Below, one piece after another: positions 5,086 through 29,506 of a stretch of DNA of 36,327 nt. Location: assembly GCA_028710685.1 (NCBI GenBank), contig JAQTTQ010000009.1:1-36327 (forward strand), read 5' to 3'. Position 1 is the first letter of the stretch; each line of letters starts with the position of its first letter. The translations under genes and the position numbers were made by a program. Origin of the DNA: Candidatus Omnitrophota bacterium (GTDB lineage: Bacteria; Omnitrophota; Gorgyraeia; Gygaellales; Profunditerraquicolaceae). The notes below the pieces were generated by a model. That model worked only from the letters and a program-made list of their open reading frames with translations. It was not told the origin of the DNA and did not search any database.

Positions 5086-5088
5086 CTC

Positions 5089-6545: not shown

Positions 6546-6558
6546 CAAAGGAGAAAAT

Positions 6559-7179: not shown

Positions 7180-7243
7180 TTAAACGCCGGATATAGATTG
7201 TTAAGATATTAATAGGCTTAAAGATTAAAATAGGGAGGAGAGA

Positions 7244-7889: not shown

Positions 7890-10106
7890 ATGAAAAGGCT
7901 AGAAAACGGCATAGTTTTTATAAATCCCTATAATCCGGACCCGCCTCCTAATTATTTCGGCCCGCCTTATGGCATCAGTTTAATAGCAGCCTGTATGATC
8001 TCTGCCGGCATAAAAATACCTTTAACGGCATACGATTTTGACCTTGAACCGCGCGATTTCATGCTGCAGTCAGTAGAGCGTATTTTAAGAAAAGAAAAAC
8101 CTGCTTATCTAGCTATAGCTACCCAGAGCTGTACAAGGGGCGGCGTATATGATCTGATAGGCTTAGCCAGGAGAATAAAGCCGGATATTACCATAATTTT
8201 AGGAGGGCCCTTTGCTGCGGTTAAATACGATTTCTTGCTTAAGAGTTTTAAGGTTGACTATGTCGTGGTTGGGGACGGCGAAGAGACAATGGTTGAGCTT
8301 ATAAGTAAGCTGGAAGAAGGGGTAGTGCCTTTAGGGGTTAAGGGAGCTGCTTTCTTGCGTAAGGGGAAAATTTATTTTTCCGGGGAAAGAGATAAGGTGC
8401 TTAACCTGGATTCCTTGCCTTATCCGGCCTTTCATCTTTTTAGGGGGTTTGAGAAAAGGATCAATTCTGGCCGCAGCCTTAAGCCAATGTCTAATTTTAT
8501 ACTGGGGCGCAGATGTACAACCCTTAAGAACGCCCTTTTGATGCTTTCTTCGCGGGGATGTGTTTATAGCTGCAATTTCTGCCCGATGAGCAAAATAGAT
8601 AAAGCTAAAGTCCGTTTTCATAGCCCTGAGTATTTTGTCGATATGGTTGCTTATTTTTATCGCAGGTATGGGATAAAAGATTTTGCCTTCGGGGATAATT
8701 TTTTTACCCTCTCCAGGGAAAGGGTGATGAGCATATGTGATCTAATCCTTAAGAAGGGGTTAAAGATTAAATGGAGCTGCATGACCCGCTCTGACAGTGT
8801 GGATAAGAAAATGCTCAGGGCTATGTCAAAAGCAGGATGTTTTGAGATCTCTTACGGTGTAGAAAGCGGCTCTGAGCAGATCCAGGATAAAATTGGCAAG
8901 AAGTTAGATTTGCTTAGGACAAGGGAAGCATTCAGGCAGACCGGGGAAGTGGGGATTAGAAGCATACTTATGCTAATGGTGGGCAATACAGGGGAAAGCG
9001 AGTCTACCATAAGGCAAACCTTTTGCTATGTTAGGGGGCTTAATCCGGATAGCGTACTGGTTAAGCGGGTTAAGGTCTATCCCGGCACCTTAATTCATGA
9101 TCTGTATGAAAAAAATGGCTTATTAAGGAAAAATTATTATAAGGATTCAGAATTTACCCCTCCTTCTTTTACTTGCGAGCATTCCGAAGAAGAACTGGAG
9201 AGGTTAAGCAGCAGGTTAGGGGAAAGGCGCATCTTTGTCCAGGTTAACAATGTTTGCAATAATAATTGCTATCCCTGCAGATTAAACAGGGAAGTTTCTA
9301 ATAAACAAACTGCAGAAATAAAGAACAGCCTTATTCTGGCTTCAACCCGCTGCGAACATATAGTGCTCTACGGGGGGGAGATATTTTTAAGAAAGGATGT
9401 CTTTAAACTATTGGAATTTGTCGAGCAGATACAAGTACATCATCTTAATATATACGGAAACGCAAGGATATTTTCTTATCCCAAATTTGCGGAGAGAATA
9501 AGTAAATATCATTGCCTGGAGTCATTTATTATCCCATTTTTCGGCTTAGCCCAAATACACGATGACGAGGTGAAGGTAAACGGCGCCTTTAATCAGACAA
9601 TGCTTGGGATAAAAAACCTTAATTGCGCTTCCCGTTCTTTTGAGGTTAAGGCGGCTATATACATTACCGAATCAAACTGCGCTATGTTAGGTGAGCTTGT
9701 TAAACTGCTTGTAGATAACAAAATCAAGAGTTTTCGTTTTATCTTCATGCGCGATTCAATGAAGTTAATCTCGGTTCCTGCCAGGAGGCTGCCTTTAATT
9801 AGCGTTGCGGCAGAAAGCCTTAAAAAAGCAGCCCAATATCTTAAGGGAAAGGGTTTTGAATTCTTCTTTGAAGGTTTTACGCCATGTGTCTTAAAAGGTT
9901 ACCCTCAGCACATAAGTGAATTACTTTCTCCTTTTAATGAGGCAATAACCTATGCCAAAGGTTTACAGGGGTGCGGGGAGATGAGAACTCAAGATAAAAG
10001 AAAGCTTAAATGCTGCCCAGGGTGCAAGGAAGACTTATTATGTGAAGGTGTCTGGAGGAGTTATCTAAAAGAACGCGGTGAAGCTGAGTTTGCGCCAATT
10101 AAATGA
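7890..10106 (+). CDS. B12-binding-like/radical SAM protein fused to a second radical SAM domain with C-terminal Cys motif
   Basis: N-terminal B12-binding-like fold ('PPYGISLIAACMISAG...ILGGPFAAV...VVGDGEET'); CVYSCNFC (8559) and CNNNCYPC (9255); C-terminal 'CCPGCKEDLLCEGVWRSYLKERGEAEFAPIK'. Confidence 0.85.
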   Translation: MKRLENGIVFINPYNPDPPPNYFGPPYGISLIAACMISAGIKIPLTAYDFDLEPRDFMLQSVERILRKEKPAYLAIATQSCTRGGVYDLIGLARRIKPDITIILGGPFAAVKYDFLLKSFKVDYVVVGDGEETMVELISKLEEGVVPLGVKGAAFLRKGKIYFSGERDKVLNLDSLPYPAFHLFRGFEKRINSGRSLKPMSNFILGRRCTTLKNALLMLSSRGCVYSCNFCPMSKIDKAKVRFHSPEYFVDMVAYFYRRYGIKDFAFGDNFFTLSRERVMSICDLILKKGLKIKWSCMTRSDSVDKKMLRAMSKAGCFEISYGVESGSEQIQDKIGKKLDLLRTREAFRQTGEVGIRSILMLMVGNTGESESTIRQTFCYVRGLNPDSVLVKRVKVYPGTLIHDLYEKNGLLRKNYYKDSEFTPPSFTCEHSEEELERLSSRLGERRIFVQVNNVCNNNCYPCRLNREVSNKQTAEIKNSLILASTRCEHIVLYGGEIFLRKDVFKLLEFVEQIQVHHLNIYGNARIFSYPKFAERISKYHCLESFIIPFFGLAQIHDDEVKVNGAFNQTMLGIKNLNCASRSFEVKAAIYITESNCAMLGELVKLLVDNKIKSFRFIFMRDSMKLISVPARRLPLISVAAESLKKAAQYLKGKGFEFFFEGFTPCVLKGYPQHISELLSPFNEAITYAKGLQGCGEMRTQDKRKLKCCPGCKEDLLCEGVWRSYLKERGEAEFAPIK

Positions 10107-13054
10107 TAAAAAATATTTATAAGGATAATAAATCAAAGAGTATCTTTCGGCTGAAACCGGGTTTTTATTTCGCCAATAACCTGCTTGGAGATTATGATTG
10201 TCTTGAAAGTTTTGGCAGATGTAATAATAAGTGCGTTTTTTGTTGTGATTCGGATAATTATAAAGATAATAAGAGCTTATTAATAAAGCCAAGTAGCTCA
10301 CCCAACGGGAAGATCCTTCTCTGCTGCGGAGAGCCAACCAATATTAAGAATGTCGTTAAAACCGTCAAGAATCTAAAGAATAAATATACAACGGTTGCCA
10401 TTTCAACTAACGGAAGAAAATTGGCGGATCTTAAGTTTCTCCGGGCTATGATCAGCGCCGGAGTTAATGAAGCATTCTTTTCTATTCATGGCCACGAGGC
10501 GGCGGTTCATGACAGCATCACCGGGGTTGAGGGTTCATTTGCGCAATCAGTCAAAGGCTTAAAAAATGCTTTGAAGCTTCAGGCTGAGCAGGGTGGCCTT
10601 GAGATAGCAGTTAATGCAGTTATAACTACGAAGAACTTGCCTTTTTTGAGGAAGTATCTGGTATTTCTATATAAACTGGGGATTAGAACCGTTAATTTGG
10701 ATTTGCCTGTTCCTTTGGGCGCGGCAGCTAAATCTTATCGGAAGATTATGCCTCAATACGCGAATGTAGCCTTAGAGTTTGAGAAGGCCCTTGAGGGTTG
10801 CTGTATGAACGGGATGATGATTTTTGTCTCTAATTTACCTTTATGCGTATTTAGTAGCATGAAGGGGGTGGATTACAGTCTTATACTTAATGAAAGCCTG
10901 GAGTTTACAAAGTTACGTTGTAGTGAGAGTGGTATTGTTTGCGCCGATTGTATTGCCAGCAGAGTCTGCCCGGGAGCATTTAAAGATTACGTGGATATTT
11001 ATGGGGATAGAGAATTTAAGGCGTTGAGTGAAATCGGCAGTAAAGAGGAATGTATTCTAAAGAGCAATATTGATAATCTCGCGGTAGTAATAACGTGTAA
11101 ATGTCAGTTGGATTGTCTTTATTGCTACCAGGACCGAGATCGCCCTGATCTCTCTGAAGAGGAACTTTACGCTTCCATAGACCTGCTTTTTACTTCGCCT
11201 TCAGATGAAATTGAACTTCAGTTTTTCGGGGGAGAGCCGTTGCTCAGGCTTGATTTAATTAAGAAGGGTATTAAATATGCCCAGAAAAAGAAAAAAGAAA
11301 CCGGCAAGCAGATCCGCTACCTTTTAACCACAAACGGTTTACTTTTAGATAGAGATTTACTTAAGTTTCTTAAAGAGCAGAATGTTACTATTATGCTTAG
11401 CCTAGACGGTAATTGCCGCACGCATTTGAGAAACCGGCCGTTAAAACATAAGAAGCCAGCTAACTATTTTACCCGTCTCTCTAAGATTTTGCGGCTTATC
11501 AGGGAGGTAGAAAACGATTATTTTATTAATATGGTATTCTTGCCTCGGGATATAAAAGGCCTGAATTTAAATTTAAGCTATTTGATAAAGGCAGGGGTTA
11601 AGGATATTCAGGTTGCTTATGCGGTGGGGGTTATGTTTAAGGACAGCGACATCTTTGCCTGCGTAAAAGCATTTAACAGGCTAAAGGAAGTTGCGCTTAA
11701 GTCAAAAGTCAACTTGCGCAATATTTACACCGATAATGAGCCGGTTCTTTCTTCTCCTCAAATAATGGTTACTGCCGGAGGGGCTATTTATGTGGGGTGC
11801 GGGATCCTTTTAGAGAAGCTTTTCCCTAAGTTCAGCCGGATTTTTTATTCCGGGGATTTGCGTAAGATTACAAGCATATTTTCTTTAAAGCGCTCAAGGC
11901 AGGAACAATTGGCTCTTATTCTAAAGAATATTCATTCTTTATCGCCGGAGTTGTTGAGCAATCTTTATTTAGGGGTTGTTTTATCCCTTTATTCTTTAAC
12001 TAACAGCCTGATTGATGATTATACCTTATTGGCCTCTAATAAGCCTAAACCGGTTGGAAACTATCTTTACAGGGATAAGATGCTTTTGATGCTGACTTAT
12101 CAGTGCCAAATGGGCTGTTCTTACTGCCGAATGGACCGAAGCCATCCTGAAATGCCCGCGGAAACGCTTTATAAGGCAATTGATCTTCTTTTGACTTCTC
12201 CTGAACAGGAGGTAGAGCTTCAATTCTTCGGTGGTGAGCCCCTATTGCGGTTTGACCTTATAAAAAAGGGAATCAGTTATGCCGAGAAAGAAAAGAGGAA
12301 GGTTAATAAAAAGATAAGGTATTTGGTGACTACTAACGGCTTGCTTATAGATAAGGAGAAATTGGATTTCCTGTCCGGATATAACGTATCTTTTTTATTA
12401 AGTATTGACGGAGATGAAAGGACGCAGAAGGCTAACCGTCCGCTTATCGGCGGCAGGGAAGCCTCTTACCCTTTTGGCCTGTTAAGGGAAAAGATGGTTA
12501 TACTTTCAAAGGCAAAATGCAACTATTTTATAAATTTTGTTATCAGGCCGCAGAATATTCCTTACTTATTAAAAAATGTGCATTTTTTCCTGAAGAATGG
12601 AAGCAGAAATTTAAGATTTTCATATGAATTGGGTGCATTTTGGCAACAGGAAAGGATTTTTGAATATTTTCTTAATGTTTTTAGGGCGGTATTAAAATTT
12701 TCGGATGGCTTTGACTGTTCCATAATCAATATAGGTGCGGATGATGAACCGTTTTTAGTCTCTCCGGCATTAACCATGGATTATGACGGTAAGATTTATT
12801 CCGGCTGCACCTTAACCCTGGAAGGCAAATTCCCAGACCTAAAGAAGATAAATTTAGTAGGGGAGGCCGGCAAGATAGATTCAATTTCTGAAATACGCAG
12901 AAGTAAGAGTGAAAGTATCTACAGTATTGTTAATTTTTATCCGCCGAAGTCAACACTCAGGAGGGTTATTCTTAATAATCTATTTATGGGAGAGATCTCA
13001 GGCAGCTTCTTTAGCAGTCTCTTTAATCTAAGCAATGCGGATAAACCAAAATAA
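10103..13054 (+). CDS. triple radical SAM domain fusion protein (983 aa)
   Basis: Three CX3CX2C motifs: CNNKCVFC (10220), CQLDCLYC (11102), CQMGCSYC (12104); two 'FFGGEPLLR' motifs; 'CADCIASRVCPGAFKDYVDIYGDREF' after the first domain. Confidence 0.85.
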   Translation: MIKNIYKDNKSKSIFRLKPGFYFANNLLGDYDCLESFGRCNNKCVFCCDSDNYKDNKSLLIKPSSSPNGKILLCCGEPTNIKNVVKTVKNLKNKYTTVAISTNGRKLADLKFLRAMISAGVNEAFFSIHGHEAAVHDSITGVEGSFAQSVKGLKNALKLQAEQGGLEIAVNAVITTKNLPFLRKYLVFLYKLGIRTVNLDLPVPLGAAAKSYRKIMPQYANVALEFEKALEGCCMNGMMIFVSNLPLCVFSSMKGVDYSLILNESLEFTKLRCSESGIVCADCIASRVCPGAFKDYVDIYGDREFKALSEIGSKEECILKSNIDNLAVVITCKCQLDCLYCYQDRDRPDLSEEELYASIDLLFTSPSDEIELQFFGGEPLLRLDLIKKGIKYAQKKKKETGKQIRYLLTTNGLLLDRDLLKFLKEQNVTIMLSLDGNCRTHLRNRPLKHKKPANYFTRLSKILRLIREVENDYFINMVFLPRDIKGLNLNLSYLIKAGVKDIQVAYAVGVMFKDSDIFACVKAFNRLKEVALKSKVNLRNIYTDNEPVLSSPQIMVTAGGAIYVGCGILLEKLFPKFSRIFYSGDLRKITSIFSLKRSRQEQLALILKNIHSLSPELLSNLYLGVVLSLYSLTNSLIDDYTLLASNKPKPVGNYLYRDKMLLMLTYQCQMGCSYCRMDRSHPEMPAETLYKAIDLLLTSPEQEVELQFFGGEPLLRFDLIKKGISYAEKEKRKVNKKIRYLVTTNGLLIDKEKLDFLSGYNVSFLLSIDGDERTQKANRPLIGGREASYPFGLLREKMVILSKAKCNYFINFVIRPQNIPYLLKNVHFFLKNGSRNLRFSYELGAFWQQERIFEYFLNVFRAVLKFSDGFDCSIINIGADDEPFLVSPALTMDYDGKIYSGCTLTLEGKFPDLKKINLVGEAGKIDSISEIRRSKSESIYSIVNFYPPKSTLRRVILNNLFMGEISGSFFSSLFNLSNADKPK

Positions 13055-14948
13055 AATGGCACAAAGCGGTATGGATAATTGCAAAGTAGAAAGTCTTATG
13101 GTGATGTGTACCTATTCCTGTCAGTTGGATTGCGCTTATTGTTATGTAAATAGGGCCGGTTATTCTATGCCGGAAGCAGTTCTCTATAAAGCGATAAATC
13201 TGCTCTTGACTACAAAGAGCCCCAAGTGCCAGCTAAGGTTTTGGGGCGGAGAGCCTCTTTTGCGGTGGGAGTTTGTAAAAAAAGGGATAAAATATGCCCG
13301 GGTCATGTCCGCTAAAAAGAAAAAGAAGATTAAGTTCATGATCACTACGAATGGCCTGCTTTTGGATGAAAATAAACTGAAGTTTTTAAAGAATTTGCCG
13401 GTTGAGGTAATGTTTTCCCTGGATGGAGCTGAAAAAGCTAATTCAAGGCTCAGGGTATTTAAATCTAATAGAAACTATTATAAAGTCCTCTTTAGCAACC
13501 TGGAGGCGTTGCGTGACTCGGGGGTGCCTTACTTTGTGAATATGGTGGTAACCCCAAAGACTGCTTTAGGGCTGTCAGAAAACTTGAAATTTCTATACGA
13601 TAACGGAATTAAAAGGGTCCAGCTTGGATATCAAAACGGAATTTTTTGGCCGGCTTCTTTGAAGAATGCTGTAATTAATGGAATTGAGAGCTTCATGGCC
13701 TCGGGGGTAAGCAGTGATTTCTTGATGAATTTTGTAAATGAGTGTGAGCCTACTATTCTCAGCCCTGAGGTAATTTCGGATGTTGACGGGGAAATATATT
13801 ACGATGCGGCTATTTTTATGGAGAAGGTTTTTCCAAACTTAAGAAAATATTATTATGCCGGGACGTTAGAGGAGTGTAAAGCTATTGATTCGCTTTATTC
13901 CTGCCGGGATGAGCTTCTTGAAAAGTTTCAGCAATCCTGCACCACTGTTACGCAAAGAAAGGTTCTCCTTAATAATATTAATTTTGGGCTAGAGTTAGAG
14001 AATTTATTTAAGAAACTCTCGCCCGATTCCTTGGATTCAAATGAGCACCCGCTCTTAATTCCGGTAGTCAGGGGGGATTTTGGTAAGCAAAATGATATTC
14101 TGCCCGGGTTAGGGATAAATTCTTTATTCCTGTATGTAGAGGGGCCTTGTTTAAATGATTGTATTTTTTGCAGGCAAAAAGAAGATTTTGGTTACAGCGA
14201 TATTTTTAAGATTCAGGCCCAATTGCAGCGTAATGCTGAATTGAAGGCCTCCCGGCTTTGTATTATCGGAAACGAGCCTTTAGCCCATTGGGGCATATCT
14301 AAGATAGTCTCTTTGGCCGTTAAGTGCGGATTCTCTAAGGTAGAGGTAATGACTTCAGGGGAGGGCCTATGTGATAAGGAATTTACCTCTGAATTAATTA
14401 AAAGCGGAGTTTCATCTCTTTCTCTGCCGGTATTTTCTGATAAGGCATCTCAACATGATATGATCGTGGGGCGAAGGGGAAGTTTTCGCAGGCTAATGGA
14501 AGGGATAAATAATGCCAAGAACCTGGGGGCGGAGGTATTCGTGCATTCTAATTTGCTTAAACAGAATATCGATTCCCTTATACCTCTTGAGCGGTTGGTA
14601 AGAAAAGGGCTTAAGCTGCCCTTTGTTATACTACCTATCAGGCCCAAAAGTGCTAATATGTCTTTTAAAGACCTGATGCCGCCTTATAAGGATATCTTAG
14701 CTAAGCTCTCCGGGATTAATTCTTTGATGGGGTTTCCGATATGCGTAACAGCTAAAGTTCAGGAAAAGGCCTTAAAGAACAAGGAGGATATCTCTGATTC
14801 TATGAAGCTTTATATTCTGGATCAGAAATTTATTAAAATAAACATCTGTAGGGGCTGCCGCTATAAAAATAGCTGCTTGGGGTTTTTTAGGGAGTACGCA
14901 GATATTTACGGGGTTGGAGAAATCTCCGCTATTGTCAAGAATGAATAA
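13035..14948 (+). CDS. double radical SAM domain fusion protein
   Basis: CQLDCAYC (13119) with 'FWGGEPLLR'; CLNDCIFC (14148) with 'GNEPL'; C-terminal 'CRGCRYKNSCLGFFREYADIYG'. Confidence 0.85.
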   Translation: MRINQNKMAQSGMDNCKVESLMVMCTYSCQLDCAYCYVNRAGYSMPEAVLYKAINLLLTTKSPKCQLRFWGGEPLLRWEFVKKGIKYARVMSAKKKKKIKFMITTNGLLLDENKLKFLKNLPVEVMFSLDGAEKANSRLRVFKSNRNYYKVLFSNLEALRDSGVPYFVNMVVTPKTALGLSENLKFLYDNGIKRVQLGYQNGIFWPASLKNAVINGIESFMASGVSSDFLMNFVNECEPTILSPEVISDVDGEIYYDAAIFMEKVFPNLRKYYYAGTLEECKAIDSLYSCRDELLEKFQQSCTTVTQRKVLLNNINFGLELENLFKKLSPDSLDSNEHPLLIPVVRGDFGKQNDILPGLGINSLFLYVEGPCLNDCIFCRQKEDFGYSDIFKIQAQLQRNAELKASRLCIIGNEPLAHWGISKIVSLAVKCGFSKVEVMTSGEGLCDKEFTSELIKSGVSSLSLPVFSDKASQHDMIVGRRGSFRRLMEGINNAKNLGAEVFVHSNLLKQNIDSLIPLERLVRKGLKLPFVILPIRPKSANMSFKDLMPPYKDILAKLSGINSLMGFPICVTAKVQEKALKNKEDISDSMKLYILDQKFIKINICRGCRYKNSCLGFFREYADIYGVGEISAIVKNE

Positions 14949-16053
14949 TTTGAGCGTAGATAAAAAATTATTATACGGTGAATTGCGTAAGGTTGGCATA
15001 AGTAATTTCCTGGAAAGCAATATGCTTGGGGAAGTCTACTTTATGCTTTCGTTAAAGTGTAATCTGCGTTGTAAGGTATGCGCCTGGTGGGGCAAAAGTG
15101 GGCCTTGCCGCAATAAAGCATTCTTAAGAAAATACCCGCCGGTTCTAACTACGAAAGAATTAATGCGCTTTGCCAGGGAGATTTTATCTTATAACCCGCA
15201 CCGTGTCACTTTCTCCGGAGGAGAGCCGTTATTCAATAAAAAGTGGTATTACCTGGCAAAGTTTTTTAAAGAAAACGCAGTGAAGGTTTCTTTAACTACC
15301 AACGGTGTTTTTCTTTTGAAGGAATTTGAGCGGGTTACTAAGGTAGTTGATGAAATCAACCTTTCTCTGGGCGGGCCTCCTTCGATTCTCTCCGTTATAA
15401 GAGATAACCGGAGGCAGCATTTTAAAGACATAATGCAAGGGCTTATTAAGCTAAGCTCTTTTAAAAGAAATAATAACAATAGGCCCAGCTTAAGAATTCT
15501 TTATACTATTTCTAGCTTAAGCTATAAGCATATGCATGAACTTGTGGAGTTTATGGAGGATAATGATATCGCAATTGACCGTTATCATTTCCAGCATCTT
15601 ATGTTTATCGACGAGCCGACGTTTAAGAAACAAAAGGAAGTTTTCTCAAAAGAATTTAATGTTGCGCGTTGCGACTTGTGGAGAGGGTATACATTCCCAC
15701 CGCTGAATCTAGATTTCGATTTCTTTAAGAAGGAGATTGGTAAGCTTTACAAATTGAATAATGTATCTTTCAGCCCTGATCTTAAGGCTCAAGAGTTGGA
15801 ATCATATTATAGGTTTAACCGCGGGGCTTTGGGTTATAACAGATACTGTACTGCCCCTTGGCACCAGATAGATATTATGCCTAACGGAGATATATATACC
15901 TGCCATGATTTATTTATAGGAAATCTCCGGGAGGAGAACTTTAAAGATATATGGAACGGAGAAATTTCCCGCAAACTCAGGTTTCGACTTACTCGAAAGT
16001 TATTCCCCGGTTGCAAAGGGTGCTTTTATCATTATTCTGAAAGGAGCCGTTAA
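14941..16053 (+). CDS. radical SAM/SPASM protein
   Basis: CNLRCKVC (15058), 'FSGGEPL', canonical SPASM 'CTAPWHQIDIMPNGDIYTCHDLFIGNLREENFKDIWNGE...PGCKGC'. The track ORF starts at TTG 14914; ATG 14941 seems more likely. Confidence 0.85.
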   Translation: MNNLSVDKKLLYGELRKVGISNFLESNMLGEVYFMLSLKCNLRCKVCAWWGKSGPCRNKAFLRKYPPVLTTKELMRFAREILSYNPHRVTFSGGEPLFNKKWYYLAKFFKENAVKVSLTTNGVFLLKEFERVTKVVDEINLSLGGPPSILSVIRDNRRQHFKDIMQGLIKLSSFKRNNNNRPSLRILYTISSLSYKHMHELVEFMEDNDIAIDRYHFQHLMFIDEPTFKKQKEVFSKEFNVARCDLWRGYTFPPLNLDFDFFKKEIGKLYKLNNVSFSPDLKAQELESYYRFNRGALGYNRYCTAPWHQIDIMPNGDIYTCHDLFIGNLREENFKDIWNGEISRKLRFRLTRKLFPGCKGCFYHYSERSR

Positions 16054-19284: not shown

Positions 19285-19296
19285 CTCTGTGTAAAG

Positions 19297-22032
19297 ATGA
19301 ATAACAGTTGTAAAAATTTGCATAAAGGATTTCCCGGGTTCATTTATTTCAGGCTTGCCAAAAGAAGCAAGGATTTGCCAAGGCCGTTGCTTTTGCGCCG
19401 GGCCCGAGAGTTTTCTCAGGTTAAGCCCCATCTTCAGAGAGAGAGGCCATCCTTAAACTTTATCAGGAAGGCGCCTGTAAAGGTTCTTCTGTTTAAGAAT
19501 ATTTTTAATTCTGCCGATAAAGAGCAAACCCGGGGTTTTTGCTCCGCATCTCTTTATTTAGCTTCCGGATTAAAGCGTAAGGGTATAGATGTTATCTTCT
19601 CGGAAGCAAAAATCCCGCTTGATAAAAACGATTCCCTATTTTTTAAAGAAGAAATTGAAAGAATTCTTTGTAAAGAGCAGAATATAAAGTTTATTTGTAT
19701 TTCGCTCTGCGAAGGCTTCTTTGAACAAGCCCGCGACTTGATAAAGTTTATTCGCGCAAGGACAAAGGCCTTTATTGCTGTGGGGGGCGTTATGCCTACC
19801 TTGACCCCGGAGCATGTTTTTGTGCATTTACCGGAATGTAATTGCCTTATAAGGGGAGCGGGAGAGGATGTATTGCCGCGATTAGTCGAGCTTTTGTCCA
19901 ACAAGGATATCGACTCCAATTTCACAGAGGAAGAGCTGGGTTTATTTTCCGGGTTTAACGGTTTTCTATTCCATTCCAGGCGTGTCTTTATTTCTTCCGG
20001 GTTAAATATTATTAATGCGCCTCTTAATTACGATGATTCTTTGCTGGATTTGAATTTCTTAAATAAAGAAGATGTAAAAGACGGGCTGAACCTTTTTACC
20101 TCCAGAGGATGCTATAACTGCTGTACTTTCTGTACTTCTTTTGGCAAGGGCAAATTGCTCGCTAAGAGCTTTACAGAGTTTAAGAAAATTATCGCAAATT
20201 ACCTAAAAAGGCTTAATGAAGTTTTTGGTGATAAAATTCCCGCTTCAGCCCTTATGCTTGCTTTCCATGATGATGATTTTCTTGCCGATCATAAGAGGGC
20301 AGGGGAGATTTTTTCTTATTTATTAAAACAGCCAGTTAGAATTGATTTCTTTCAGACCGGCATTAATTCATTCTTCAAGCGTAGGAAAGAGGGATATTTA
20401 CAGGCTCTTGATAGAGGTTTAATAGAAGCCATCTCCCCGGAAATATTTGTTAAAGGTAAAAAAAGGAATCTTTATATCGGCACGGAGAATTTTTCTAATC
20501 CAGAACTTATCCGGCTGGGTAAGGGGTATGAATTCAAAAAGGTAGAAAAAGTCGTAGCTGCTTTATCCAAGAAGAAGATATACCAGAGCCACCATTTAAT
20601 TTTAAGTAACCAGTTAACGGGTATTTCGGACCTTTTAGAGAATTTGCTGAAAATATCCGTTTTGAGGATAAAGTATAATGAGTTTTTCAATATTCTAACG
20701 CCTATTATCCCTTATCTGGTTTCTTTTTACCCTTCCTTAAGCTATAGAAATATTATTTTTTCCCGTAAGGCTAAAATGCTTAATATAAGGCGTAAGCTGT
20801 CCATAAAAGGATATCCCGAATATGATTATCCTCTGGTAGATAACGATATCCCTATTGATGAGGCCGTAAGGGAGATGGTCCCGTTTGTCTATAATTTATT
20901 TTTACGATTTAAAGATTATTCCCGGGTCTTTGAAGAGGCATTTTCTGCGCTCTTGTTTTTAAGGGAAAAACTGCCCTCTAGCAGGAGTAAGATAAATTAT
21001 GTAGTCAGGGATTATAAGAATTATCCCGAAGTTATTTTACGTGAAACCGGCGTAAGGGTCTGCGCCGATAGAAACAACCTCCAGCTTATGATTACGCGCA
21101 GATGCCAGTTGGACTGCAGCTATTGCCCCATAATAAAAAAGAATATTGATATGGATGAGGCAACCCTGTTTAAGGCGATTGATTTATTGTTTACTTCTTC
21201 CGGCAATGAAGTCCGTATAGACTTTACCGGTGGAGAGCCGTTACTTCGTTTTGACCTGGTAAAAAAGGGGGTAGGGTATGCTAAGGCTAAAGCCATTAAA
21301 TCAAAGAAGCATGTTTCTTTTTATATGGTCACTAATCTTATCGCCCTGACCGAAGAAAAAGCGGATTTTATCGCTGGTGAAGATTTCTTCCTTGAGCTTT
21401 CGGTAGATGGAGAGGAAAGATTCCATAATTGCTATAAGCTTTCAAGGGATAAGAAGATTAATCCATACCGGGTAACTACTGCTAACCTGAATATGATATT
21501 TTCGCGCGGAATAGATAACTATGCGGTTATGGTCGCTAATCCTGCCATAATCCGGCATTTGTATAGTAATTTTAATCATTTACTTAAGCTGGGTTTCAGT
21601 AATATCGGGATTAATTATGCCCTTTGTTCTTTGTGGCAAGATAAACCTCGAAGTGAGTTCTTCCGGCAGACAGATAAGATAATTAATGAGTTTGCGCCAT
21701 ATTTAAAGAGCGGAAAGATAAAATTGAGCAACTTAGGCTCGCGCTCTGAGCCGGCGGTTCTAAATAATGAAATCATGGTAAATAGCGACGGAAAAGTTTA
21801 TTGTTTATCTGATTGGCTTTTTGAAAAAAGCGGACATACCAATATCCTGCCATTGGGTAAAGTGGGGGGCTTCAAAAGTATCAGCGAGCTTTCTTTTGCT
21901 AAACCCCTGCAGCTTTTAAGGATGCTTGATGGCCACAACCTTTATCAGCGTAAGATCATCTTTAATAATATTGAAATGGGGATGATAGCCGATAATTATT
22001 TTAAATCATGGAAAAAGCGGTTGAATTTATAA
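19297..22032 (+). CDS. B12-binding-like/radical SAM protein fused to a second radical SAM domain (911 aa)
   Basis: N-terminal 'AFIAVGGVMPTLTPEHVF...LIRGAGEDVLPRLVELL'; CYNCCTFC (20110); CQLDCSYC (21103) with 'FTGGEPLLRFD'. Confidence 0.83.
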   Translation: MNNSCKNLHKGFPGFIYFRLAKRSKDLPRPLLLRRAREFSQVKPHLQRERPSLNFIRKAPVKVLLFKNIFNSADKEQTRGFCSASLYLASGLKRKGIDVIFSEAKIPLDKNDSLFFKEEIERILCKEQNIKFICISLCEGFFEQARDLIKFIRARTKAFIAVGGVMPTLTPEHVFVHLPECNCLIRGAGEDVLPRLVELLSNKDIDSNFTEEELGLFSGFNGFLFHSRRVFISSGLNIINAPLNYDDSLLDLNFLNKEDVKDGLNLFTSRGCYNCCTFCTSFGKGKLLAKSFTEFKKIIANYLKRLNEVFGDKIPASALMLAFHDDDFLADHKRAGEIFSYLLKQPVRIDFFQTGINSFFKRRKEGYLQALDRGLIEAISPEIFVKGKKRNLYIGTENFSNPELIRLGKGYEFKKVEKVVAALSKKKIYQSHHLILSNQLTGISDLLENLLKISVLRIKYNEFFNILTPIIPYLVSFYPSLSYRNIIFSRKAKMLNIRRKLSIKGYPEYDYPLVDNDIPIDEAVREMVPFVYNLFLRFKDYSRVFEEAFSALLFLREKLPSSRSKINYVVRDYKNYPEVILRETGVRVCADRNNLQLMITRRCQLDCSYCPIIKKNIDMDEATLFKAIDLLFTSSGNEVRIDFTGGEPLLRFDLVKKGVGYAKAKAIKSKKHVSFYMVTNLIALTEEKADFIAGEDFFLELSVDGEERFHNCYKLSRDKKINPYRVTTANLNMIFSRGIDNYAVMVANPAIIRHLYSNFNHLLKLGFSNIGINYALCSLWQDKPRSEFFRQTDKIINEFAPYLKSGKIKLSNLGSRSEPAVLNNEIMVNSDGKVYCLSDWLFEKSGHTNILPLGKVGGFKSISELSFAKPLQLLRMLDGHNLYQRKIIFNNIEMGMIADNYFKSWKKRLNL

Positions 22033-23252
22033 TTAATTCTTATCTTTCCTCGCCCTATAAGCGCAAATTGGATTATCTGGATAATTTCCTATTTTCGCTT
22101 TTATTCAGAAAAGAAAACCTCCTGCTTAGAAACCCTGGTAGTAAGAGCGCAAAAGAAATAGAGGGGTTTTTGGGTAAATATTATGACTATAGGGATATGA
22201 TATATAAGAGGATGATTAAGCTTAACCCGGGAAGGGAAAATAAGCTGATTGAGGATATTTATCTTCCTCCTGACCGGCTGGTTTTTCTCTTAACCCATAA
22301 TTGCCAATTAAGGTGTAAATATTGCAGGGTAAGGAAATTTACCGCTTCAATGGATAGGGATGTTTTATTTAAGGGAATTGATTTGCTTTTGACTTCAAAT
22401 GCCGATGAATTACAGGTACAGTTTTTTGGAGGGGAGCCTTTGCTTAAATACGGCCTTTTGAAGAAGGCGGTTGAATATACAAATAAAGCCAGGCTTAATA
22501 ATAAAAAGTCCGTAAGCTTCTTGCTTACTAGTAACGGGATTGAGCTAACAAAGGAGAAAGTAGATTTCTTTAGAAAGCATAATTTCACGGTTGAGTTTAG
22601 TATAGACGGTGAAATTAAAAACCAGCTTAGTTCCAGAAAGTCACCTAACGGTATTAACTATTATGCTAAGATGTTGAGTAACTTTAACTACCTTAAGAAG
22701 TCGCGCCTTCCTTATTATTCAATAAGCGTGTTCATGCCGGAGAATGTATCAAATATGTTTGAAAGTTTTCTGTCTCTGGTTAATTCCGGATTTGAAAGGC
22801 TGCAGATTAATTATGCCTTAGGTGTTTTCTGGGATAAGAAGGCAAGCCATATGCTTTTTAACCAAACCAGGAAGGTAATAGACTTTGTCAGAAAAAACAA
22901 GAATATAGAGTTTATTAATTTAAGCAGTATGCGCAAAGAACCTGTTGTCTTGAATGCTGAGTTAACCCTTGACTGTGACGGCGGAATATACCTTGAATCC
23001 GGAATATGCCTGGAAGAGGATTTTGCAGCTATGAAGGATAAGTTTAAAGTTTCCAGCATTAAAACAGCAAAGAATATTAATTTGCTATCAACCTCTGATT
23101 TCCGTAATTTCTACAATCTTTCCAGGGTATACGGCAGGGTTAGCCCGCTTTTTAGGAAGATAATAGTCAATAATATTAAGCTGGGAAGTGAATACGGAAA
23201 GTTGTTAGAATATGAACAAGGTAGAGGATCCCGTAGTGAAAAAGAAGATTAA
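22008..23252 (+). CDS. radical SAM protein, GGEPL type
   Basis: CQLRCKYC (22302), 'VQFFGGEPLLKY', 'LTSNGIELT', 'FSIDGE'; overlaps upstream gene by 25 bp. Confidence 0.83.
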   Translation: MEKAVEFIINSYLSSPYKRKLDYLDNFLFSLLFRKENLLLRNPGSKSAKEIEGFLGKYYDYRDMIYKRMIKLNPGRENKLIEDIYLPPDRLVFLLTHNCQLRCKYCRVRKFTASMDRDVLFKGIDLLLTSNADELQVQFFGGEPLLKYGLLKKAVEYTNKARLNNKKSVSFLLTSNGIELTKEKVDFFRKHNFTVEFSIDGEIKNQLSSRKSPNGINYYAKMLSNFNYLKKSRLPYYSISVFMPENVSNMFESFLSLVNSGFERLQINYALGVFWDKKASHMLFNQTRKVIDFVRKNKNIEFINLSSMRKEPVVLNAELTLDCDGGIYLESGICLEEDFAAMKDKFKVSSIKTAKNINLLSTSDFRNFYNLSRVYGRVSPLFRKIIVNNIKLGSEYGKLLEYEQGRGSRSEKED

Positions 23253-24237
23253 GTTTTCTATTCCCTATAACGGGGACTTAAAACTGGTAAAAGAAGCTAT
23301 ATCCTCCGGCCAGGTGTATGAAGTTTATTTTGCCGGGCCGCAAGGATTGGACTTCTCTGATTCCTTCGAGAACCATTTGTTTCATTCCCTGAAGCAGATT
23401 ATTGCTTTACTCGATTACTGCCGCAAAAGCCACGTAAAAACTAGCCTTCTGGTAAATAAGAAGATTATGTTCTTCGAAGACTTAAAGAAGATAGAATCTT
23501 CCATCAGCAGGCTCTTGGGGGAGGGGGGAGTTGATTCTTTAACAGTAACCGATACTTTTCTTGTGCCGTTCCTTAAGGAAAAGTTTCCTTCGATAGAATT
23601 ACAGTCTTCCATATACCTGGGGATAGATAGCGTACATAAGGCAAGAGAGGCTTTAAAGATGGGGTTTTCTCTTTTAGGGCTTGATCCTTCGGTTAACCGC
23701 AGAGGAGAGGAACTGAAGAGAATTATGGGCCTGAAAAAAGTTTTTCCCGAAATGAAGGTAAAGCTTCTGGGGATACTTACCTGTTACAGTAATTGTTTTT
23801 TCGCCTCGACGCACAGCCAACTTCCTGTCTTACTTGGGGCCTTGAATAAATCCTCTCTTAGAGGATGTGACATCTTGGGAAAGAGAATAAGCCCTTTTCT
23901 CTGCCACTATCAGAGCGAGGATATATCCGATGAGCTTAAGCGCCCGTTCATCCGGCCGGAGGATATATCGTATTATGAAAATAATTGCCTTGCGGATTAT
24001 ATAAAAATAGCCTATCGTGATGAAGATAGCCGCATTCTTAGAGAAAAATATACGGCTTATTTTAACCGTTCTTATAAAGGTAATTTGTTTTTGTTGATGG
24101 ATTCTACGAAACACAGCAAGATCTATTGCGACAATAAAGAAATCCCTAAGGGTTTTATTCGCAAGGTAATGAATTGCGATAAAGACTGCCACACCTGTTC
24201 CTATTGCAGGAGGCTGGCTCTTAGGCTGATTAAATAA
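23212..24237 (+). CDS. U32 (PrtC/UbiU-V)-like TIM-barrel protein with C-terminal Cys cluster
   Basis: 'VYEVYFAGPQGLDF', 'ELQSSIYLGIDS', 'FIRPEDISYYENNCLADYIKIAYRDEDSRILREKYTAYFNRSYKGNL' resemble U32 proteins; C-terminal 'CDKDCHTCSYC'. Confidence 0.65.
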   Translation: MNKVEDPVVKKKIKFSIPYNGDLKLVKEAISSGQVYEVYFAGPQGLDFSDSFENHLFHSLKQIIALLDYCRKSHVKTSLLVNKKIMFFEDLKKIESSISRLLGEGGVDSLTVTDTFLVPFLKEKFPSIELQSSIYLGIDSVHKAREALKMGFSLLGLDPSVNRRGEELKRIMGLKKVFPEMKVKLLGILTCYSNCFFASTHSQLPVLLGALNKSSLRGCDILGKRISPFLCHYQSEDISDELKRPFIRPEDISYYENNCLADYIKIAYRDEDSRILREKYTAYFNRSYKGNLFLLMDSTKHSKIYCDNKEIPKGFIRKVMNCDKDCHTCSYCRRLALRLIK

Positions 24238-25151
24238 TGAAAAGGCTTGAATTTCATATATCCTATAAATGCCCGAATAATTGCTCTTTCTGCAGCGAGG
24301 GAGATCAGCTTAAGAAATTCAAAGGTACCTTTGTAAGCAAAGAAGCGATACTTAAGCATTTAGGGCGGTTTGCGCATCATGGTTTTAACCATCTCACCTT
24401 GACCGGAGGAGAGCCTACATTGCATCCGGATTTCCTTGAGATAATAAGATTTGCCTCTCTTTCGGGGTATAAGACCTATGTCAGCTCTAACGGGGGGCTC
24501 TTTGCCCGGAAATCTTTCTGCCTTAAAGCCCTGCCTTATCTTGACGAGGTCTCTTTCTCTTTGCACGGGGACAGCGCCCGTTTACATGATAGTCTTACAA
24601 ACAATCCGGGAAGTTTCTTAAGGTTGCGTAAGGCTTTTGCCAACATAAAAGAAGGTAAGAAAAAAGTATTTGTCTTCGTCAATATCGTGGCTACCCTTAA
24701 AAACCTGCCTTATCTTAAGAATATAATTGATTTTGCCGCAGACTCAGTTTCTGCAAAACAGGTTTTAATCTCTGCGGTAGCCCCGGAAGGCGCAGGAAAG
24801 GATAATTTCCTTAGGCTCACTATTCCTTTAAGGGAGATGGCTAAGCATCTTTCGCTTCTGGTAGATACGGCCTATCGCAGGAAAATGCGGATAAGGTTCT
24901 TCGGGGTACCGATGTGCTCGCTGGGTAAGTTTTTCGGTTTCTCTAATGATGCCTATTGGTCTTCCAGGACAACTATTGAGTTGTGGCGTAATCTTGGGCA
25001 TGAATTTCTTAAGGTGACAAAAAGTTATAAGCCGGTGCGCAATAGAATTAAAGTCCGTAAGTGCCTTAGGTGTGCGGTAAGAAATATATGCGGCGGGGTT
25101 TTTAGAGAATACGTAGTTAAATTCGGGACTGAGGAGATTCATCCCTTCTAA
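24237..25151 (+). CDS. radical SAM protein with C-terminal CxxCx5C motif
   Basis: CPNNCSFC (24270), 'LTGGEPTLHPDF', 'CLRCAVRNICGGVFREYVVKFGTEEIHPF'; TAATG coupling to previous gene. Confidence 0.85.
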   Translation: MKRLEFHISYKCPNNCSFCSEGDQLKKFKGTFVSKEAILKHLGRFAHHGFNHLTLTGGEPTLHPDFLEIIRFASLSGYKTYVSSNGGLFARKSFCLKALPYLDEVSFSLHGDSARLHDSLTNNPGSFLRLRKAFANIKEGKKKVFVFVNIVATLKNLPYLKNIIDFAADSVSAKQVLISAVAPEGAGKDNFLRLTIPLREMAKHLSLLVDTAYRRKMRIRFFGVPMCSLGKFFGFSNDAYWSSRTTIELWRNLGHEFLKVTKSYKPVRNRIKVRKCLRCAVRNICGGVFREYVVKFGTEEIHPF

Positions 25152-25153
25152 AT

Positions 25154-26512
25154 ATGAGTAAGAATATCAATAAGATTATTCAACAGGATCTGGCCAGGTT
25201 TAAGTTGTTGCTTAAGCAAAGCGACAATTTCTATGATATTAACCAGCTTCATGCCTTAACCAGGTATTCTTTATCGTTCTCTTATCCGCAGGTTAGAAAG
25301 TACTGGAAGCAGTATATAGATATGGGGCTTAGGAATAATAAGGCCTTGGCGAATGTTGATCTGTATGTCCATATTCCTTTTTGCCGGTCAAAATGTTCTT
25401 ATTGTATTTTTCCTTCTATGCCGCTAAAGGGTAAGGCGCAGGTTGAAGGATATATTGATTATTTGATAGAGGAGATGCATTTTTACTCAAAGACCTTTAA
25501 AGATATTGAGTTCCGTAATATTTATATCGGAGGAGGCACCCCCAGCGTTCTTTCTTCTGCGCAAATGAATAGGTTATTAAAGAATATGTTCGGTTGTTTC
25601 GCTTTTCGTAAGAATGGGCAAAGAACCAGCGAATGTAACCCTCATAGCGTATCTAAGCCTATTTTCTCCGTCCTTAGGGATTATGGTTTTAACCGGATTA
25701 GTTTCGGAGTTCAGTCATTAAACGCCAAGGCCTTAAAGGTAAATAAGAGGGATTATCAGGATTACGAGGTAGTAAGGCAAAGGATATCTGAGGCTAAGCA
25801 GTGCGGTTTTAATGATATCAATGTAGATTTGATAGCGGGTTTAGGGGGAGATACGCTGGAAGGGTTTAAAAATAGTTTCACTAAGGTGGCCCGGCTTAAG
25901 CCTTATAATATTGTGGTTTATGGCCTGATGCCGCCAAGGGATAGTTATCTTGCCGATAATTTCCGCATGAGTAAATACGATTATTTCACTTATCATTATT
26001 CTCCTATGATAAAGAAGGCATTAAAGATCATGGCTGTGATTTGCAGAAAATACGGCTATATTCCTGATTCGCTGGATCCTTCGAAGTTTCACTGGGGATT
26101 CAGGGATAAGGGCCATTTAGAGGAGGATCCGGGTAGCGGTTATACCGGAGAGTACGGAGGATGTACTTTAGGCTTGGGTAATTTTTCCCGCTCGCATATT
26201 CACGGGGTAGTGGAATACCGTAATATTAAATACAGCAAATGCTTTAGTCTAAAGAATCGTTTATTTGAAGGCAGGGAGATTACGTTAAGGGATGAAATGG
26301 CAAAATATATCATAAACTGTCTCGATCGGGAATCTCGTATTTCATTAAGTATTTTTAATGAAATATTCGGCGAAAATTTAATTAAAGCCTTTCCTTACGC
26401 AATTTATGCCTTAAGGCAGCTTAGGCTGATACATTATTCGAAAGATAATTTGATATTCCGGTTTAGAAATCCTCAGGATAAATATGTGTATAGCCTGTTT
26501 TTCCTAAAATAG
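25154..26512 (+). CDS. HemN-like radical SAM protein
   Basis: 'VDLYVHIPFCRSKCSYC', 'IYIGGGTPSVLS', 'RISFGVQSLNAKAL', 'INVDLIAGLGGDTLEGF'. Confidence 0.85.
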   Translation: MSKNINKIIQQDLARFKLLLKQSDNFYDINQLHALTRYSLSFSYPQVRKYWKQYIDMGLRNNKALANVDLYVHIPFCRSKCSYCIFPSMPLKGKAQVEGYIDYLIEEMHFYSKTFKDIEFRNIYIGGGTPSVLSSAQMNRLLKNMFGCFAFRKNGQRTSECNPHSVSKPIFSVLRDYGFNRISFGVQSLNAKALKVNKRDYQDYEVVRQRISEAKQCGFNDINVDLIAGLGGDTLEGFKNSFTKVARLKPYNIVVYGLMPPRDSYLADNFRMSKYDYFTYHYSPMIKKALKIMAVICRKYGYIPDSLDPSKFHWGFRDKGHLEEDPGSGYTGEYGGCTLGLGNFSRSHIHGVVEYRNIKYSKCFSLKNRLFEGREITLRDEMAKYIINCLDRESRISLSIFNEIFGENLIKAFPYAIYALRQLRLIHYSKDNLIFRFRNPQDKYVYSLFFLK

Positions 26513-28564
26513 ATGAAGAATAACAATTTATTACAAAAAGAAAAGGCGGTAAAGGTTAAAAGGCAGTGGGTCAGGCTGACAAGGGCCTGTAATAATAGGT
26601 GCCTTTTTTGCCTTGATAATGAGGCTCAGGACGGAAGCTGTATAAATTTCTCAATAATTAAAGATACTCTCGCAAAGGGAAGGGCGGCTAAAGCCGAAAA
26701 GGCTGTCTTAAGCGGCGGAGAGCCAACCCTGCACCCTGAATTATTCAAAATAATAAGCGCTGCCCGGGATATGGGTTATTCAAAGATTCAGGTTATAACC
26801 AATGGGCGCATGTTTGCCTATCAAGAGTTTTTAAGGCAAGCGGTGGATTGCGGGGTTACCGAGATTACATTTTCTATCCATGGGCATACCCCCCAACTTC
26901 ATGACCAGCAGACTCAGGTTAAGGGTTCATTTGATCAGTCTGTCCGGGGTTTATTAAATGCGCGTAAAATTAAAGGCCTGGTGGTAAATGCGGATATAGT
27001 TATTAATAAGCTGAATGTCGGGTATCTCAGGCAGATAATCGGCTTTCTTGTTGTTCTGGGGATAAACGAGTTTGACCTTCTCCAGGTGATGCCTTTTGGC
27101 AGAGCATGGCTAAACCAAAGGCAGCTATTTTATGATATCGAGAAGGAGATTGAGGGTTTAAGGCTTGCCTTTGGGGTAAGGAAGGCTTCTCCAGTATGTT
27201 TATGGACTAATCGTTTTCCGGCTATTTATCTTGAAGGTATGGAAGATTTGATCCAACATCCTAATAAACTGATTGATGAAGTTTCAGGGGTTAAGGAGAT
27301 GTTTGGTAAATTTATCCGCTACGGCTTGAGAATGCCTTGTTGGGGAGAAAGGTGCCGTTATTGCTGTTTGCAGGGATTTTGTGAAGATCTTATTGCCCTG
27401 AGAAGTACCGGCTTGCTTTCCTCCCGCTTGAATCCTTTATGCATAGATAAGAAGTGGCGTAAGAAGGCTGCAGTCAGGAAGTTTAAGTTCAGCAAGGGCA
27501 TGGACCTTCTTAAATTTCTCGATTTCTACCTTAAGGAAAGGTACTTTGTTAAAAGCCTGCGCTGTGGGGAATGTGCTTATAATAAAGAATGCCAGGGCGC
27601 GCACATTGACCTTATCAGGAAGAACGGGTTTGCCCTGCTTTCTCCGTTTAAGGCTGAAAACAGCAGAAGATATCCGCTTCTCAGGCTTACTCTTGATTGT
27701 AACGCTTCGTGTTTATTCTGTAATGTACCTGTTGAGTCGTCTGATTCTAAAGAAATTTCTACATCTGGCGCTAAGCAGTTAATAAGTAAAATTGCCGCTG
27801 TAGGCCAGGATGCAAAAATAGATTTTACAGGAGGAGAGCCTACTATCAGAAAGGATTTACCGAAGCTGATAAGGTATGCCCGGTTGCAGGGTATTGAAAC
27901 AGTCCAGGTTCAGACTAATGCCCTAAAGTTGGCAGATAAGGGTTATCTCAGGTCTTTACAAAAAGCCGGATTGAATAAAATATTTGTCGGGTTGCATTCC
28001 TTTTCGCCTTCTGTGCATGATAGCCTTTTAGGCCTTCCGGGTGCTTTTGAAAAATGCATTAAAGGGGTAAGAAATGCTATCTTAGCAGGTATCGAAGTAA
28101 CCCTGAACCCGGTCATAACAAGCAGGAATTATAAAGAATTGCCGGATTATATGTTAAAGGTCGCAACGCTTAAGAAGGTGAATTTTATTTCACTTTCGGT
28201 AGTACAGCCGCGCGGCAGGGCGGGGATTAATAAGGATCTGGTGCCGGATTATAAAGTTATAGGCCCTTATGTGGAAAGGGCTCTTTTGATCGGGAATAAG
28301 CTTGGGCTGGTAATTAATAATCCTTATTGCGGATTGCCTATGTGCGTAGGGGGATGGTATAATTATCCTCAAGGTTGCGTAGAGTATTGTGAGGGGCTTA
28401 TAGGCAGGGGCGGTAAGAACGAAGACAAAATTAAGGCTTCTTTCTGCGGTAAATGCAGTTTTAATAATTTTTGCAATGGGGTTTGGAAAGAATATGCGAA
28501 AATACACGGATTCTCAGGCCTTCGGCCGTTAAAATTAAAAAATGATAGCTACGTCTATATCTAA
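26513..28564 (+). CDS. double radical SAM fusion protein with extra central Cys-rich segment
   Basis: CNNRCLFC (26588) with 'LSGGEPTLHP'; CNASCLFC (27698) with 'FTGGEPTIRKD'; C-terminal 'CGKCSFNNFCNGVWKEYAKIHG'; central 'CWGERCRYCCLQGFC'. Confidence 0.86.
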   Translation: MKNNNLLQKEKAVKVKRQWVRLTRACNNRCLFCLDNEAQDGSCINFSIIKDTLAKGRAAKAEKAVLSGGEPTLHPELFKIISAARDMGYSKIQVITNGRMFAYQEFLRQAVDCGVTEITFSIHGHTPQLHDQQTQVKGSFDQSVRGLLNARKIKGLVVNADIVINKLNVGYLRQIIGFLVVLGINEFDLLQVMPFGRAWLNQRQLFYDIEKEIEGLRLAFGVRKASPVCLWTNRFPAIYLEGMEDLIQHPNKLIDEVSGVKEMFGKFIRYGLRMPCWGERCRYCCLQGFCEDLIALRSTGLLSSRLNPLCIDKKWRKKAAVRKFKFSKGMDLLKFLDFYLKERYFVKSLRCGECAYNKECQGAHIDLIRKNGFALLSPFKAENSRRYPLLRLTLDCNASCLFCNVPVESSDSKEISTSGAKQLISKIAAVGQDAKIDFTGGEPTIRKDLPKLIRYARLQGIETVQVQTNALKLADKGYLRSLQKAGLNKIFVGLHSFSPSVHDSLLGLPGAFEKCIKGVRNAILAGIEVTLNPVITSRNYKELPDYMLKVATLKKVNFISLSVVQPRGRAGINKDLVPDYKVIGPYVERALLIGNKLGLVINNPYCGLPMCVGGWYNYPQGCVEYCEGLIGRGGKNEDKIKASFCGKCSFNNFCNGVWKEYAKIHGFSGLRPLKLKNDSYVYI

Positions 28565-28567
28565 AAT

Positions 28568-29506
28568 ATGGCTAATTTAGGTTATATACAGATAACCAGG
28601 TCCTGTAATCAAAAGTGCAGGTTTTGTTCTAATCCGGACACCGGAGAAACTATAACCTTAAGCCAGGCAAAGCACTATATAAATGATTATGCCAAAAGAG
28701 GTTATGCCGGAGTCTTCCTTACGGGAGGAGAGCCAACCCTGCATCCTCAGCTTACGGAGATGATCGCCTATGCTTTATCAAAGAATATCTTACCCAGGCT
28801 GATAACTAATGGCCAGCTCTTAAGTGAAAAGAAGAGGTTTCCCTCTTTAATTAAGAGCGGGCTAAATCATATCATGTTGTCGGTTTATTCCTATGACAAT
28901 AAAGTACAGGCTAAGCTTTCCGGTAATTCGGCATCTCTCTCCAATATAAAGAGCGCCTTAGATAATATAAAGGATGCGGGGATAACGGTGGATATTATAA
29001 CTACTATAAATAAATATAATGCTTCGCATTTAAGCCGGACTGCTAAATGGATAGTTGAAAGTTATCCTTTTATAAGGCATTTTATATGGAATAACCTAGA
29101 TCCTTTAAATAACCGGGCTGCAAGTAATCCTGATACCTGGCCTAAGCTTAATGATTTCGAGCTAGAGTTGAATAAGGCGATGTGTTTCTTGTGCAGCGCG
29201 GGGAAGACCTTCAGGGTGGAGCGAGTGCCCTTATGTTATATGAGCGGGTTCGAGCATTGTTCTACGGAAACCCGTAAGATTGTAAAAGAAGAAGAGCGTT
29301 CAATATTTTTTCTTGATGATAAAGCCTTTGTAAAGCAAAAAGGCTTAAGGGGGTTGATCGGCTATAACAAGTCTAAGTGTTGTAAGGATTGTTTATTGGA
29401 TAGTATTTGCGCCGGGCTCTATGGGGGCGGCGAATGTTATTCGCTTTCGGAATTGTATCCGGTGTTTATACCGAAAGAGGTAATTATAAAGAAAATCTTA
29501 GAATAA
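28568..29506 (+). CDS. radical SAM protein with C-terminal Cys motif
   Basis: CNQKCRFC (28604), 'LTGGEPTLHPQL', 'CCKDCLLDSICAGLYGGGECY'. Confidence 0.83.
   Translation: MANLGYIQITRSCNQKCRFCSNPDTGETITLSQAKHYINDYAKRGYAGVFLTGGEPTLHPQLTEMIAYALSKNILPRLITNGQLLSEKKRFPSLIKSGLNHIMLSVYSYDNKVQAKLSGNSASLSNIKSALDNIKDAGITVDIITTINKYNASHLSRTAKWIVESYPFIRHFIWNNLDPLNNRAASNPDTWPKLNDFELELNKAMCFLCSAGKTFRVERVPLCYMSGFEHCSTETRKIVKEEERSIFFLDDKAFVKQKGLRGLIGYNKSKCCKDCLLDSICAGLYGGGECYSLSELYPVFIPKEVIIKKILE

Follow-up and report, generated by a model that had tools for sequence, protein, structure and literature searches.

Radical SAM gene array of an Omnitrophota bacterium, a probable maturation-enzyme set of an enlarged Hxs RiPP system

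Introduction

Which product requires thirteen radical SAM (rSAM) genes in a row? RiPP pathways usually employ a single rSAM enzyme or a few of them, and the described His-Xaa-Ser (Hxs) systems have two; the chemistry of the latter appears, to our knowledge, uncharacterised. The question is raised by a gene block in the draft genome (1.24 Mb, 90 % complete) of a Candidatus Omnitrophota bacterium. The window analysed here is an entire 36-kb contig (C34; 36,327 nt). A preliminary description of the block had suggested an elaborate anaerobic multi-step pathway, noted that enzymes of these kinds often build RiPPs or cofactors, and knew of no described system that matched. In the literature searched on rSAM arrays in Omnitrophota and on Hxs together with U32 proteins, no published account of such an enlarged array was found, and a 2023 survey of the Omnitrophota did not mention radical SAM genes. 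The Hxs RiPP system comprises HxsA-D, represented by NCBIfam models TIGR03976-TIGR03978 and NF038313 (Haft and Basu, cited in PMC9062424).

Results and discussion

Composition of the gene block

Fourteen consecutive open reading frames on the forward strand (7890-29506) constituted the block, thirteen rSAM genes and one U32-type gene, and the gene calls agreed with the preliminary description. Neighbouring genes overlapped by up to 41 bp or were separated by gaps of at most 12 bp. A precursor gene within the block was ruled out, since overlapping or abutting genes leave no space for it; the lack of a precursor counts against the assignment to a peptide pathway proposed below. Scans for promoters and terminators around the block gave results no better than, or close to, those of shuffled sequence. 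Pfam PF04055 scored above cut-off in 13 of 13 rSAM genes, and an exact recount reproduced the 19 CX3CX2C motifs previously assigned to them (8559, 9255, 10220, 11102, 12104, 13119, 14148, 15058, 16252, 17508, 18424, 20110, 21103, 22302, 24270, 25382, 26588, 27698 and 28604; all positions checked matched), for a chance expectation of 0.14 motifs on average and 3 at maximum in 500 residue-shuffled versions of the same proteins. The U32-like protein contributed a twentieth motif to the block, its C-terminal CX3CX2CX2C. Genome-wide, PF04055 had 38 matches, of which 20 were located on contig C34, the twentieth being an AmmeMemoRadiSam gene at 29897 behind the block; this tally omits the first B12-rSAM half of gene H.

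Two kinds of rSAM domains dominated the block. PapB/HxsB-like domains were present in genes B (two), C, F, H and I, and the conserved C-terminal auxiliary cysteines were absent from the six domains compared. HxsC/HxsC4-like domains occurred in genes A, B, C, G, J, L (two) and M; most of them had the pattern PxC...CxxCx5C, which suffices for one auxiliary cluster. The other kinds were B12-binding (A, H), HemN-like (E, K) and rSAM/SPASM (D). In the NCBIfam scan none of the window domains reached the curated cut-off for a named peptide maturase, a further point against a peptide pathway. The best NCBIfam model for the PapB-like domains was that of the PapB ranthipeptide maturases (NF047865, about 120-260 bits), and gene I matched peptide-maturase folds; the window domains differ from these maturases in the missing SPASM auxiliary-cluster cysteines and in a best whole-protein score of 260.4 (gene B) against a cut-off of 340. 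Several HxsC-type domains were matched by PADLOC pVip models, a point in favour of a viperin-like antiviral island. Single-domain genes, however, scored about 38-62 bits and none of the listed matches of multi-domain genes exceeded about 93 bits, compared with an NCBIfam cut-off of 180 (NF038283), and defence genes are absent nearby; the probability of such an island is negligible.

Array genes in Hxs loci of other Omnitrophota

Contrary to the statement that no described system matches, orthologues of nearly every block gene were found inside Hxs RiPP loci of other Omnitrophota. The Hxs locus of genome G167, about 33 kb with about 22 rSAM genes, has the order HxsD-HxsB-sec331-HxsA4 with F-G-H directly behind it; these are followed by I, a B-like gene and D, by A-B-C, and finally by J, L, M and the gene of an A24 peptidase. 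G394 has about 17 rSAM genes in the order HxsD-HxsB-HxsA-F-G...E...J-K...L...M-A24, and in G131 and G317 genes L and M come after G. The conserved sub-blocks within Hxs loci are A-B-C, F-G-H-I and J-(K)-L-M; thus the genes do stay together, while their dispersal in related genomes had been set beforehand as one refutation of the preliminary description.

The first sub-block starts with gene A (7890-10106), in which a B12-binding and rSAM domain is fused to an HxsC-type rSAM domain (PF02310, two PF04055 matches). The orthologue in the G167 Hxs locus matched with 500 + 171 bits, and the HxsC half groups with its G167 counterpart at 99 % SH-aLRT. Gene B (10103-13054) combines an HxsC-type with two PapB/HxsB-like domains without auxiliary cysteines (three PF04055 matches; below cut-off for NF047865, TIGR03978 and NF038332); its middle domain has a G167 relative (238 bits), and its HxsC half obtained no placement in the HxsC-type tree. 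The PapB-like and HxsC-type fusion of gene C (13035-14948; two PF04055 matches) recurs in G167 (323 + 297 bits), within the same Hxs locus that also contains an orthologue (297 bits) of the rSAM/SPASM gene D (14914-16053; PF04055, PF13186).

Gene F (17460-18404) encodes a PapB-like rSAM protein without auxiliary cysteines (PF04055), and its orthologues adjoin HxsA in G167 (148 bits) and G394 (229 bits). The HxsC-type gene G (18391-19284) has a four-cysteine auxiliary motif and a TIGR03977 score of 103, below the cut-off of 267.9; by orthology it is the usual HxsC in Omnitrophota Hxs loci, and it shares 49 % identity with a relative in the Velamenicoccus Hxs locus. Gene H (19297-22032; PF02310, PF04055), a fusion of B12-rSAM and PapB-like rSAM domains, is present as a full-length fusion with 47 % identity in the G167 Hxs locus. 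Gene H also matched giant frames of 7,924 aa (G135) and 5,360 aa (G321), and a B12-binding/radical SAM domain related to it lies in an open frame of 11,104 residues (G017, C93:66869-100183) together with histidine-kinase ATPase, SNF2 helicase, sigma-70 and NAGPA domains. Gene I (22008-23252), PapB-like with a helical N-terminal extension, has a G167 Hxs-locus orthologue (365 bits); its closest PDB folds are CteB, anSME, TigE and ChlB, all peptide-modifying rSAM enzymes.

In the third sub-block, the HxsC-type gene J (24237-25151) has orthologues of 286-320 bits in the arrays of G167, G394 and G175, and in the G394 Hxs locus it is followed directly by the orthologue (524 bits) of the HemN-like gene K (25154-26512; TIGR03994 below cut-off). 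The double HxsC-type fusion of gene L (26513-28564; two PF04055 matches) recurs in the same locus (432 + 338 bits). Orthologues of the HxsC-type gene M (28568-29506; 209-382 bits) stand last before the A24 peptidase in G131 and near A24 in G394, G167 and G175. Outside the sub-blocks, the HemN-like gene E (16054-17463; TIGR00538 and TIGR04107 below cut-off) has relatives within the Hxs loci of G394 (236 bits) and G254 (214 bits). Both HemN-like proteins missed the curated HemN cut-offs, gene E with 159.5 versus 324.95 bits and gene K with 169.5 versus 321.4 bits.

HemN-like, B12-rSAM and U32 domains are known from tetrapyrrole and quinone pathways, and on this basis the block might be read as an independent anaerobic route to a cofactor or small molecule, without relation to Hxs. 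The Hxs-locus orthology in G167 and G394 strongly disfavours this already; E and K themselves have orthologues in Hxs loci, and the block is devoid of synthetase, transferase or cofactor genes. We regard such a pathway as very unlikely. The evidence agrees with an elaborate anaerobic multi-step rSAM pathway that probably yields a RiPP, whereas a cofactor, the other product class mentioned in the preliminary description, found no support here.

Gene G was used as tracer in 384 Omnitrophota genomes. At a threshold of at least 240 bits, 22 genomes had an orthologue, 20 of these possessed HxsD and 18 had it on the same contig, against a base rate of 35/384 for HxsD (Fisher p = 6e-22). Two genomes with gene G were without an HxsD match: G348, where HxsB and HxsA lie beside gene G, and G175, in which the contig ends beside gene F. 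These two, G224 with its Hxs locus spread over two contigs, and the window genome are the four lacking HxsD on the contig of gene G. In a tree of 68 HxsC-type domains, calculated by a quick method and with several long branches, support values of 99-100 % joined domains A, J, L1, L2 and M of the window to their counterparts in Hxs loci of other families. As judged from this grouping, the HxsC-type subfamilies are old and not local duplicates; recent tandem duplication as origin of the array was ruled out by the tree. Many related domains in a row and a patchy occurrence within the genus would be expected if the array were a selfish or decaying product of tandem duplication and had little function. 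Yet every reading frame was intact with 19 of 19 CX3CX2C motifs retained, the domains group with orthologues in other families instead of with each other, and the orthologues in the same-genus genome G001 are likewise intact at 82-86 % identity. Decay is thus a highly improbable explanation.

Other genomes rich in rSAM genes were observed in the family of the window genome: G016 and G008 have 63-72 rSAM domains per genome, many in dense runs (G016, C7:180000-246278; G008, contigs C32, C45 and C80), and G016 is without HxsD. These are possibly other types of rSAM arrays.

The Hxs core in the source genome

HxsB, HxsA and HxsD were not found within the window block. A complete Hxs core is encoded on another contig of the source genome (C11), consisting of HxsA4, HxsB, HxsC, HxsC4, HxsD and an A24-type leader peptidase, with scores above the curated cut-offs for HxsB (536.6 > 370), HxsD (66.8 > 50) and HxsA4 (74.2 > 55). 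Because these three components are absent from the window and present on C11, the block is Hxs-derived and not a complete Hxs locus. It shares with the Hxs system gene G and further HxsC relatives as well as a core in the same genome, and it differs by 13 rSAM genes with 19 domains in place of two rSAM enzymes, and by additional B12-rSAM, HemN-like and U32 enzymes. Located on different contigs, array and core show no visible physical link in this genome, which counts against a joint function.

The HxsA4 precursor has 129 aa with His-Xaa-Ser repeats. The HxsA peptides have three features in common: a leader rich in Lys (IKKDIKxFLxSEEG), a hydrophobic segment and a His-Xaa-Ser tail. An identity of HxsA as Flp/Tad pilin was dropped: there was no Pfam pilin match, and the Tad pilins of Velamenicoccus look different; therefore the A24-peptidase linkage alone was retained, as a presumed one. 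The A24-type leader peptidase, the secreted, Cys-containing sec331 as well as a short secreted protein bearing the motif TTYYPSP[YF]GSY recurred around HxsA-D in Omnitrophota (L023, L022, L070, L074, L080, L075) and may be unreported Hxs partners.

Within the genus, G001 has both Hxs core and array. In G003, HxsC4-HxsC-A24 is kept, but no gene H and no U32 gene was seen; hence, the array is accessory and dispensable.

The U32-fold protein

Between genes I and J lies the gene of a U32-fold Fe-S protein with the C-terminal CX3CX2CX2C (23212-24237). The sequence match to PF01136 was weak, 16.3 bits for a cut-off of 22.4 (relatives 26-45 bits), and the U32 profile matched no sequence in the PDB. 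The predicted structure (pLDDT 74.7) had as best PDB fold the U32 peptidase Mk0906 (5d88, E 2e-8), by which model the original U32 call is clearly right. The U32 oxidases characterised so far (UbiU/UbiV and RNA hydroxylases; reviewed in PMC11574389) hydroxylate independently of O2 and have a CX6CX15CX3C motif. The window protein resembles them in the U32 TIM-barrel fold and conserved cysteines, however it conserves CX3C...C and the C-terminal CX3CX2CX2C in place of CX6CX15CX3C. Since the latter is absent, hydroxylation by analogy is a lead only.

U32 genes co-occurred with HxsD above expectation (8 genomes, p = 0.002). The nearest orthologues, 43-47 % identical, were found in Velamenicoccus archaeovorus LiM, UBA6210 and nCal2bin1. 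In strain LiM, a single cluster rich in rSAM genes (903-932 kb, NZ_CP019384) unites HxsD/HxsC/HxsB, an rSAM array and two U32 orthologues, both of which lie at a distance of about 20-30 kb from HxsD. Unlike the window block, this locus also holds glycosyltransferase and aminotransferase genes, and most of its rSAM genes are merely distant relatives of the window genes.

Further rSAM/U32 neighbourhoods were noticed in other lineages. An Altiarchaeales locus (L069:4665-12918) with HxsC, two U32-fold genes, HxsB, a small HxsD-like ORF and an A24 peptidase is an archaeal Hxs-like system. Woesearchaeota and Nanoarchaeota (L067:6186-9353, L068:7826-11011) have in common a three-gene unit rSAM-U32-U32, possibly a minimal form of the pairing. 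In G079 (L061:2-12059), a U32-TPR fusion occurs together with three rSAM genes, a PqqD-like gene of 94 aa and an ABC exporter, which makes this locus another RiPP candidate.

Function of the array

We interpret the block, with a probability of about two in three, as the maturation-enzyme array of a hyper-expanded Hxs RiPP system, separated from its core. The interpretation builds on the gene content, the orthology to Hxs-locus genes, the conserved sub-order and the core in the same genome. From these we infer HxsA4 as substrate, the reaction types, the leader cleavage by A24 and the product. The leader-bearing HxsA4 would be made from contig C11, and HxsB/HxsD together with the array enzymes (about 19 rSAM domains) would modify its tail in successive radical steps: putative cross-links by the PapB/HxsB-like and HxsC-like domains, putative C-methylation by the B12-rSAM domains and putative O2-independent hydroxylation by the U32-fold enzyme. 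The locus-linked A24-family peptidase may then cut the leader and the product, probably a surface-associated peptide, would be exported.

HxsA4 is a simple repeat, therefore nineteen domains for one peptide are hard to rationalise. The glycosyltransferases and the aminotransferase in the rSAM/U32 loci of Velamenicoccus and UBA6210 also count against the Hxs-array reading. An array of Hxs descent could have been recruited to another substrate, a peptide, glycan or lipid-linked sugar, with the C11 core working alone. Array and core are unlinked here, and C11 looks complete with its own HxsC, HxsC4 and A24; in the clusters of Velamenicoccus and UBA6210, rSAM/U32 genes stand among glycosyltransferases, a GT-rSAM fusion and the gene of a DegT aminotransferase, and more distant U32 relatives are accompanied by TPR repeats and a PqqD-like gene. 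Against recruitment, the same genes are contiguous with HxsA in G167 and G394, and the window block lacks any glycosyltransferase or sugar gene. We consider recruitment unlikely.

In its most far-reaching form, the Hxs-array reading has some 20 dedicated radical enzymes and a U32 hydroxylase of a new type mature, without O2, a single short His-Xaa-Ser peptide from another locus; an A24 (prepilin-type) peptidase would cut off its leader and give a densely cross-linked, methylated surface peptide. This scenario is put forward tentatively, as plausible though rather doubtful in its entirety; if true, no RiPP pathway known to us would be richer in rSAM enzymes. The placement with Hxs makes an apparently unclassifiable 'orphan' array of 21 kb testable, because a probable peptide substrate can be named. 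In Omnitrophota, Hxs loci can reach a size of about 22 rSAM genes (G167), and U32-fold proteins and A24 leader peptidases are added as recurrent Hxs partners, archaea included. The array itself presents a defined set of uncharacterised enzyme subfamilies, among them rSAM domains without auxiliary clusters and a U32 type with a new cysteine pattern.

Genes flanking the block

Upstream, a Mla-type ABC transporter set (MlaE, MlaF, MlaD and a PqiC-like lipoprotein) and a YciC-like membrane gene (3955-7876) run in the direction of the block, with a 13-bp gap before it. A conserved Mla neighbourhood was rejected, as no MlaE, MlaD or PqiC homologue was present at the other Hxs loci examined. Downstream, a small secreted protein of 117 aa without family (29542-29895) is encoded between the block and the AmmeMemoRadiSam rSAM enzyme (29897-31018, forward strand; TIGR04337, 373 bits for a cut-off of 220). 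The AmmeMemoRadiSam gene, which also flanks the Hxs loci of G029 and G093, is probably a neighbour outside the pathway.
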